Below are positions 3,823 through 6,027 of a stretch of DNA of 23,415 nt, one piece after another. Under the pieces are notes generated by a model. It had not been told where the DNA came from, searched no databases, and worked only from the letters and a program-made list of their open reading frames with translations. Positions within the stretch are counted from its first letter, which is position 1. Each line of letters starts with the position of its first letter. A program made the translations under genes and the position numbers. This DNA is from a virus. The stretch is taken from positions 1 to 23,415 of IMG/VR virus record IMGVR_UViG_3300046804_001270; one strand, given 5' to 3'.

Positions 3823-3967
3823 AAGTTATTATAAATTTTTTATAAGGAATTATTGCAATGGTTTTATTTTCTTCATATATAAAAATCATTTCATCTTTTA
3901 TAACAAAATCATCAAATGAAAAACAAAATAAATCCCCACAATCTAAATCTTTAATATTAATATTCAT
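3803..3967 (-). CDS. Small hypothetical protein, 54 aa
   Basis: This short frame fills the gap between the RecB-like nuclease and the zinc-ribbon protein. It starts at ATG 3965-3967, inside the last codons of the nuclease gene (11-base overlap), and ends at TAA 3803-3805, inside the first codons of the next gene (20-base overlap). The protein is acidic in its first half (DLDCGDLF, FDDFVIKDE), then has an IYEENKTIAIIPYKKFIITFDYDLQ-like beta-rich end, with no membrane segment or known motif. The overlaps on both ends and the open frame in very AT-rich sequence support it. The function is unknown. Confidence 0.55.
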   Translation of the reverse strand: MNINIKDLDCGDLFCFSFDDFVIKDEMIFIYEENKTIAIIPYKKFIITFDYDLQ

Positions 3968-4715
3968 CTTTTTTATATTTTAGTTGGTAAGAAATATTAC
4001 GTGGTGTTACTCCTTCGTTCATTGCGAGCCATAGCTTTTGTGTGCTTTTAAAAAGCTCCCAATCTTTCTTTAGCTCGGTCATTGTGCGTGTTACAAGTTG
4101 CCATCCGAGGCCTTGTATAGCTCCGTTTTTGCCAGTTGTCCTGGTTTTGGCATTAAGCCATAATATGCCTACGCTATCTACGTTTAACTTTTTATGATGC
4201 TCTTTAAGTAATTGATGGTATGCTGCAAGTTGTAACCAATATGATGGATAAATGCTATTTGATGTTTTAATGTCGAGTAGCATCGTTAATGATCCAAGTC
4301 TTATCACTCGATCAAGTGTGCCAGCAAAGCCTAACTTATCACTCATTAAATGCACTTCCATCATATCAATGGTAGGCTTATACATCGTTGAAAATTCAAC
4401 ATAACGCTCGAACATTGACCACTCTAACATTTTATATTGTGGCGTTCCATACTCATTAATTAATGTAATCTCTTCATTGCAATCATAACGCTCCGTAAGC
4501 TCATGCACTACTGATCCACGCCTACCTGCCTCATCTCGTATGGCGTCAGCATCAGAACCAACATCTTTAAGCCATTTAAAGTAGCTAACATCTTTCGGAT
4601 AAGCCTCTAAAATTGTGGTAACACTTGGTAAATAATTGTCCTTGGGAGAAAGGTAAAAACGATTGTCAATAAACTGAATACGTTGTCGGTCTAGGTCTAG
4701 TTTGTAATTTTTCAT
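3957..4715 (-). CDS. PD-(D/E)xK nuclease, RecB/Cas4-like
   Basis: A 252-residue nuclease of the RecB/Cas4-like PD-(D/E)xK group. Numbered from the ATG at 4715, the conserved residues are H71 in GSVVHELTE, D135 in FAGTLDRV, D148 and K150 in LLDIKTS, and Q162 with Y166 in LQLAAYHQL, the order typical of this family. Such proteins act as 5'-3' exonucleases or end-processing enzymes in phage recombination. The frame also extends upstream to a TTG at 4745, but that would run into the tRNA-like element, and the internal ATG at 4713-4715 gives the better N-terminus, so I chose it. No cysteine cluster for an iron-sulfur site is evident, unlike classical Cas4. It sits between an SSB-like protein and a helicase. 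Confidence 0.85.
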   Translation of the reverse strand: MKNYKLDLDRQRIQFIDNRFYLSPKDNYLPSVTTILEAYPKDVSYFKWLKDVGSDADAIRDEAGRRGSVVHELTERYDCNEEITLINEYGTPQYKMLEWSMFERYVEFSTMYKPTIDMMEVHLMSDKLGFAGTLDRVIRLGSLTMLLDIKTSNSIYPSYWLQLAAYHQLLKEHHKKLNVDSVGILWLNAKTRTTGKNGAIQGLGWQLVTRTMTELKKDWELFKSTQKLWLAMNEGVTPRNISYQLKYKKDEY

Positions 4716-4735: not shown

Positions 4736-4789
4736 TGGTCTCCAATTCAGATTCGAACTGAACGTCTGCGTACCACTTACGTTGGAGAC
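4736..4789 (-). ncRNA. tRNA-like element lacking an anticodon arm
   Basis: The 91-base space between the SSB-like and nuclease genes holds a structure with tRNA elbow features. Read on the minus strand, GTCTCCAA (4789-4782) pairs with TTGGAGAC (4745-4738) as an acceptor-like stem. A perfect T-arm follows the tRNA layout: stem TTCAG/CTGAA (4762-4758, 4750-4746) with a seven-base TTCGAAT loop matching the TPsiC consensus, directly abutting the acceptor strand. A small D-like arm, CGT-AAGTGGT-ACG (4781-4769), carries the GG expected to contact the T-loop. CCA follows a possible discriminator base (A4739, then 4738-4736). Only six bases separate the D-like and T arms, so there is no room for an anticodon arm. 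It is not a functional elongator tRNA. A decayed tRNA, a tRNA mimic or a processing signal are possible. Confidence 0.5.
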
Positions 4790-4806
4790 GATCCTTATAA
4801 CCAAAC

Positions 4807-5882: not shown

Positions 5883-5898
5883 ATAATTTAATTTTAGA

Positions 5899-5906
5899 CA
5901 AAGTTA
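5899..5906 (-). promoter_or_regulatory. Bacteroidota-type -7 promoter box
   Basis: The minus strand reads TAACTTTG, an exact match to the Bacteroidota -7 consensus TAnnTTTG, placed so that transcription would begin roughly ten bases before the ATG of the XRE gene. No convincing -33 TTG/TTTG box sits at the usual spacing; the upstream stretch is T-rich instead. Its position between a terminator and the first gene of the early unit supports it as the early promoter. Confidence 0.5.
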
Positions 5907-5936
5907 ATATAACAATATTCAATAAATAAAATTATA

Positions 5937-5956
5937 TTACGAAATCGTTTTCGTAA
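5937..5956. promoter_or_regulatory. Candidate operator palindrome
   Basis: An inverted repeat with perfect 8-base arms, TTACGAAA-TCGT-TTTCGTAA, lies upstream of the promoter-like box and 55 bases from the start of the XRE gene. It is much more GC-structured than the surrounding AT-rich bases and is not followed by a T-tract on the minus strand, so it looks like a protein-binding site rather than a terminator. The XRE protein is the obvious candidate binder; this is an inference. Confidence 0.5.
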
Positions 5957-5972
5957 ATCAATAGGGTGCAAT

Positions 5973-5999
5973 AAAAAGCCCCTCGTTGAAACGAAGGGC
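5973..5999 (-). terminator. Rho-independent terminator of the late unit
   Basis: On the minus strand GCCCTTCGT-TTCA-ACGAGGGGC forms a nine-pair stem (one G-T pair) with a four-base loop, followed at once by TTTTTATT. It lies 28 bases after the stop of the HExxH protein gene and before the early promoter, so it ends transcription of the long virion-lysis unit and insulates the early unit. Confidence 0.88.
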
Positions 6000-6027
6000 G
6001 ACAAACCAACTGCTATGAAAAAAACAC

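Follow-up and report, generated by a model that had tools for sequence, protein, structure and literature searches.

The window, which is the whole 23,415-nucleotide stretch analysed here, is a phage contig of 23.4 kb. Its minus strand carries the long genes, among them those for an exonuclease, a helicase, a DNA polymerase exonuclease subunit, a DNA methyltransferase, an endolysin and several tail genes. A gap of 91 nt separates the gene of a 194-aa protein from that of a PD-(D/E)XK exonuclease and holds a tRNA-like element (Table 1); the layout of the genes suggests that the two flanking genes are co-transcribed. A Pfam search gave nothing for the 194-aa protein. Its structure, predicted with a pLDDT of 86, strongly matches uncharacterised Caudovirales proteins, including those of Cellulophaga phages, and weakly matches OB-fold-like PDB entries, none at E<=0.001. 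Based on the OB-fold-like matches and an acidic tail that ends in phenylalanine, this protein is probably a single-stranded DNA-binding protein (SSB).

Table 1. Features of the gap and its two flanking genes, with positions in the window
Feature	Positions	Strand	Remarks
Upstream gene, 194 aa	4807..5391	(-)	predicted beta-rich, acidic tail ending ..DSTPF
Spacer, 17 nt, upstream-gene stop codon to element	4790..4806	(-)	
tRNA-like element (mini, type A), 54 nt, no anticodon arm	4736..4789	(-)	minus strand is the coding strand
Acceptor 5' strand GTCTCCAA (G-1 and positions 1-7)	4782..4789	(-)	pairs with 4738-4745; covariation
D-hairpin CGTA-AGTGG-TACG, 4-bp stem	4769..4781	(-)	loop GG at 4773-4774
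Linker CAGACG, 6 nt	4763..4768	(-)	replaces anticodon arm and variable loop
T arm, 5-bp stem TTCAG/CTGAA	4746..4762	(-)	canonical loop TTCGAAT
Acceptor 3' strand TTGGAGAC (positions 66-72 and C73)	4738..4745	(-)	covariation
A-rich leader, 20 nt, element to downstream start codon	4716..4735	(-)	
Downstream gene, PD-(D/E)XK exonuclease	3957..4715	(-)	phrog_298, PF12705; ATG start at 4715

A preliminary description of this DNA had called the gap the only sizeable one of the operon; another, at 5883-6027 (145 nt), is larger. That second gap contains a terminator-like hairpin (5978-5999, minus strand, GCCCTTCGTTTCAACGAGGGGC followed by TTTTT) and is probably a unit boundary preceding the HTH gene. 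Promoter-like sites near the element do not exceed chance. A Bacteroidota-type promoter picked out by eye at TAGGTTTG was rejected because it has no upstream box and its motif is lost in the relatives L002 and L009.

The structural parts named in the preliminary description are all present, on the minus strand. Read 5' to 3', the element runs GTCTCCAA / CGTA-AGTGG-TACG / CAGACG / TTCAG-TTCGAAT-CTGAA / TTGGAGAC / CA. Its acceptor stem has 8 bp, comprising 7 bp and a G-1:C73 pair. Once C73 is paired to G-1, only CA follows it, so that the CCA described at the expected 3' place is out of register; relatives read CCT, TCA, GCG or ACG, and an encoded CCA is mostly absent and not conserved among the mini elements.

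We collected loci with the same gene pair by protein-guided IMG/VR searches and, after removal of duplicates, obtained 84 distinct gap versions. A descriptor of acceptor plus T-arm finds a tRNA-like element of some form in 40 of them, a count to be read with some descriptor rows arising by chance (e.g., the second rows in L013, L022, and L149) and with a doubtful acceptor assignment in L066, where the T-arm is clear. Type A, the mini element, is present in the window, L002-L009, L043, L010, L011, L012, L022, L019, and L107, where it starts 13-37 nt past the upstream stop codon and always carries a D-loop GG and a T-loop UUCRANY. The linker reads CAnnnG across the aligned relatives. Type B is tRNA-Leu-like (AGTCAGG TGGCGGAATTGGTAGACGC ... 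GCAGGTTCGAGTCCTGC CCTGACT), with a middle that is hypervariable in length and sequence, and one such element, in L042, has an Rfam tRNA match. Type C comprises other acceptors, GACAAGG..CCTTGTC among them. The remaining gaps contain plain hairpins, three-way junctions without a T-loop, terminators, or other sequence. When 33 virus records were scanned with the full covariance model, strong matches occurred at this gap only, those of the model-building members being expected by construction. A looser descriptor, run on eleven records, recovered the tRNA-like elements at this gap, with L107 (T-stem mismatch) and L037 below the cut-off, and two other hits, where 2.3 are expected by chance.

Conservation of the stems was tested on 11 distinct mini elements, i.e., the window and 10 relatives; L012, with its longer D region, was left out owing to misalignment by MAFFT. 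Double compensatory changes are present in 12 of the 17 pairs, all three helices are represented, and 96.3% of alignment cells are paired. The covariation score is 0.555, compared with a mean of 0.168 in shuffled alignments (reached in 0 of 500) and no more than 0.088 when the partners are slid; the sequences represent few lineages, and shuffling takes no account of how they are related. Unprompted, RNAalifold returned the same structure minus the -1:73 pair. The pairs U1-A72 and C2-G71 are invariant and are thus untouched by the test. The acceptor/T helix is conserved as a structure. The invariant loop letters of the alignment are the T-loop UUCGA and the D-loop GG, both of which belong to the elbow, where they would make a three-dimensional contact.

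The strict pattern (7/7 acceptor pairs, 5/5 T-stem pairs, and a TTCRANY loop) occurs once in the window, and 0.003 occurrences per window are expected in order-2 Markov sequences. A covariance model built without the window recovers the window element with a score of 49.1 bits (E 2.7e-13), against 8.1 bits for the second-best match in the window. The isolated window RNA folds moderately better than shuffled sequences (z -2.2), and its D-hairpin is absent from the minimum-energy fold and gets little weight from energy models (about 0.12 in context). The claim therefore rests on the comparative evidence. The survey of relatives and the custom covariance search had both been proposed as checks in the preliminary description, and both turned out in its favor: the structure lies at the same locus in relatives with compensated stems, and the relatives alone suffice to find it in the window. 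The mini-element alignment likewise bears out the replacement of the anticodon arm by six bases, and with it the view of a tRNA elbow kept without the decoding part between two genes of an operon.

Two conventional identities were considered and rejected. ARAGORN calls neither the window element nor any other mini element as a tRNA and finds no tmRNA. No Rfam family, the tRNA model RF00005 included, matches the window or the tested mini elements (L006, L010, and L019), which remain without an RF00005 match even at E<=1. The element is below the family threshold for a tRNA and lacks an anticodon arm with a 7-nt loop and U33; a tmRNA is contradicted by the negative ARAGORN and Rfam results and by the absence of a tag reading frame.

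Decoding parts are also lost in the Leu-like elements. A canonical anticodon arm (at least 4 of 5 pairs and a 7-nt loop in the right place) is found in none of the 15 type B elements, while the same script detects 4-5 pairs and U33 in all 12 bacterial tRNA-Leu controls, which come from four genomes of a single bacterial class, that of a Niabella MAG (ARAGORN names 11 of the 12 as Leu). Mean identity among type B elements is 0.80 in the acceptor and D part, 0.83 in the T and acceptor part, and 0.52 in the middle, a distribution showing that selection acts on the top half. Three Leu-like elements (L013, L018, and L261) have an extra hairpin in the D-loop.

On the upstream-protein tree, type A occurs in the window clade (9 rows, support 100), L010/L011, L019, L107, and L012/L022, a scatter that implies either long persistence through deep divergence or repeated origin. 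A different clade shows exchanges of plain hairpins, type B, and type C between near-identical phages, and the shared 3' flank of that clade (CCTCACTTTTAAACAAACACTATG) starts exactly at the end of the element. The label 'tRNA-like or not' changes at least 19 times on this quickly built tree, which includes four rows from short fragments and partly relies on labels set by simple patterns. The gap slot as a whole is exchangeable.

The slot has further contents. L149, L226, and L137 have two tRNA-like elements per gap, and in L149 these alternate with a pair of additional small reading frames, of which one is lipoprotein-like. Most of L013-L029, L042, and L267 have a three-way junction with the topology of the mini element and no T-loop, the hairpins of which also show compensated changes (GCGC/GCGC to GCGA/TCGC). 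Terminator-like hairpins with a similar apex (ATGTKTCTACAT) are located in the gap past the upstream gene, or nearby, in the divergent L012, L034, L035, L037, L038, L040, L063, L066, L110, L116, and L156; termination does not need such an apex. A recurring structured-looking module ending in TGACNGCTTGGAAAGACAAGC is present in the gaps of L025, L125, L131, and L142 (no Rfam match at E<=1 for L025). The gaps of L065, L066, and L070 contain a long module that looks structured, includes a GGTGGGTGGCAACTAYCAGAAGTTGC-like segment, and has no Rfam match at E<=1.

We found nothing by blastn of the locus against INPHARED, and no cultured member of the group turned up in the phage collection. Among named phages, tblastn of the upstream protein yielded distant homologues only, in Cellulophaga phages; no tRNA-like element is present in the gap of either Cellulophaga phage phi46:1 or MW202577. 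Relatives were found in MAGs labelled Cytophagaceae and Niabella, which, together with the distant Cellulophaga phage homologues, makes a Bacteroidota host likely. No mini element was detected at E<=0.01 in 295 genomes of the class of the Niabella MAG (G034), searched with strict filters and without a positive control. A sequence pattern run over 2.9 million viral contigs returned, among 30 hits checked, this phage group and hits devoid of the pairing; the pattern misses other loop spacings, including the form in the window itself.

Several known RNAs resemble the element. The t-elements of plant mitochondria likewise resemble tRNAs and lie at the ends of genes within polycistronic RNA, where they mark RNase P and RNase Z cut sites and are cleaved, CCA-tailed, and uncharged (PMC11658184, PMC8003010). 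The phage element has the same kind of position, 17 nt after a stop codon and 20 nt before a start codon within the putative polycistronic unit. However, t-elements are organellar, share homology with tRNA genes, and by prediction still have a tRNA-like secondary structure, whereas the element described here belongs to a DNA phage, has only 54 nt, has lost the anticodon domain, and is conserved by covariation. The mascRNA and menRNA at the 3' ends of the MALAT1 and NEAT1 transcripts have acceptor and T arms, a reduced D arm with two Gs, and no decoding function (PMC11693755), but they derive from animal lncRNAs and still possess an anticodon-like stem; we do not claim homology. In the tRNA punctuation of mitochondrial polycistronic RNA, the cut signal is, as proposed here, a tRNA shape between genes, although there it is formed by real decoding tRNAs. 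The tRNA-like domain of tmRNA combines an acceptor and T arm with a reduced D arm and has no anticodon arm; the phage element differs in having neither a tag reading frame nor a long insert. Gene 32 of phage T4 encodes an SSB. The mRNA of this gene, M3 RNA, and C4 antisense RNA are phage RNAs cut by host RNase P, and the review text consulted describes no conserved tRNA elbow for them (PMC11143913); we do not put the likeness forward as homology. Viral mimicry of the tRNA elbow is known from the 3' tRNA-like structures of plant RNA viruses (PMC4810234), which are pseudoknotted, aminoacylated, and placed at the 3' ends of RNA genomes, whereas the phage element is internal in a DNA phage operon. 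No previously described counterpart from a DNA phage turned up in Rfam or in the papers searched, which were open-access ones with few subscription papers and no bioRxiv preprints among them. We class the element as an mRNA-embedded tRNA mimic, and not a tRNA, a tmRNA, or a t-element by descent.

The comparisons establish the structure itself and show that it is conserved by covariation, occupies a fixed site, and has shed its decoding parts. As to function, we give about an even chance to the reading that the element is a non-decoding tRNA top half that serves as a processing signal in a polycistronic phage mRNA ('tRNA punctuation'). RNase P, RNase Z, and the CCA-adding enzyme read the acceptor, T arm, and elbow and not the anticodon (PMC4810234), and the contacts of RNase P are limited to the acceptor and T stems (PMC11221534). 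In mascRNA, the two D-loop Gs and the T-loop recruit RNase P and RNase Z, and the product is not aminoacylated (PMC11693755). Enzymes that read the top half, together with the parallels of mascRNA and t-elements, favor mRNA punctuation. We infer that the RNA is cut, by which enzymes, and with what consequence for expression, as follows. The acceptor/T helix and the D/T elbow would be mistaken for a pre-tRNA by host RNase P, and a cut on the 5' side would free the upstream mRNA (that of the probable SSB) at its 3' end. A cut by RNase Z on the 3' side would leave the exonuclease mRNA with a short A-rich 5' leader, and the excised RNA of about 52 nt may be CCA-tailed and is probably not aminoacylated. 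The general lack of an encoded CCA and the weakness of the window D-hairpin in energy models count against punctuation. An encoded CCA aids bacterial RNase P.

The main rival, which we consider rather unlikely, is a general intergenic structure (a 3'-end stabilizer, an exonuclease barrier, or a translational insulator) for which any compact fold would do and the tRNA shape was co-opted in some lineages. Hairpins, three-way junctions without a T-loop, and terminators replace the element in relatives, partly by swaps at a shared boundary between near-identical phages, so the tRNA shape is not required for the role of the slot; replacement by hairpins or terminators is compatible with the making of mRNA ends and also with a plain stabilizer. 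However, the D-loop GG and the T-loop UUCRANY have survived a deep divergence in which most stem pairs changed, which would be unexpected if stability alone mattered, and type A persists in several separate lineages. Nor do these paired changes in the acceptor, D, and T stems and the kept elbow loops fit functionless relics of decaying phage tRNA genes, a reading suggested by the resemblance of the Leu-like elements to tRNA-Leu with ruined anticodon arms and one that is hardly credible to us. It is very unlikely that the element is an operator, bound by the upstream OB-like protein in the mRNA that encodes it, for control of the following gene: the element always adjoins the upstream gene and that protein has weak OB-fold-like matches, but phages with near-identical upstream proteins differ in element type.

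Other readings assign the RNA a role of its own. A decoy or sponge, in which the released RNA would occupy binders of the acceptor and T-arm such as a tRNA-targeting defense nuclease or a CCA or modification enzyme, seems unlikely to us. The fast turnover of the slot and its uptake of other RNA modules and small genes resemble an accessory locus, and Cas12a3 reads only the tail, acceptor, and T-arm of tRNA (PMC12851939). However, in the phage tRNA counter-defense known to date a functional tRNA is restored and its anticodon is needed (PMC11555353), promoter-like sites near the element are at chance level, and no host defense could be linked to it. A broader version, quite unlikely in our judgment, sees the gap as an RNA accessory slot in which tRNA-top-half scaffolds with varied, often structured inserts are exchanged; freed by host tRNA enzymes, these stable non-decoding RNAs would work in trans, as decoys or sponges for host factors that target tRNA. 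Mimicry for aminoacylation was suggested by the G-1:C73 pair, which the preliminary description had likened to tRNA-His identity. This pair is present in the window and L002-L009 (7 of the 11 aligned mini elements, all of one clade) and in L012, but it is not conserved in L010, L011, L019, and L107, and the mini elements outside the window clade and L012 have C/U, A/G, or G/A instead. The discriminator base is C, U, G, or A, and t-elements and mascRNA are uncharged. Because the pair is not conserved beyond the window clade and L012, we rejected tRNA-His mimicry as a general function, and an aminoacylation mimic of any kind has little to recommend it.

If tRNA punctuation is the correct reading, the essential tRNA-processing enzymes of the host would cut and separate viral mRNAs, and DNA phages would have come to the strategy of plant mitochondria and MALAT1 either by independent evolution or by borrowing from a tRNA. 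The element would then provide a compact natural substrate for defining the minimal tRNA portion needed by RNase P and RNase Z in vivo, and the gap would be a locus where tRNA-like, hairpin, and terminator solutions swap among close relatives.
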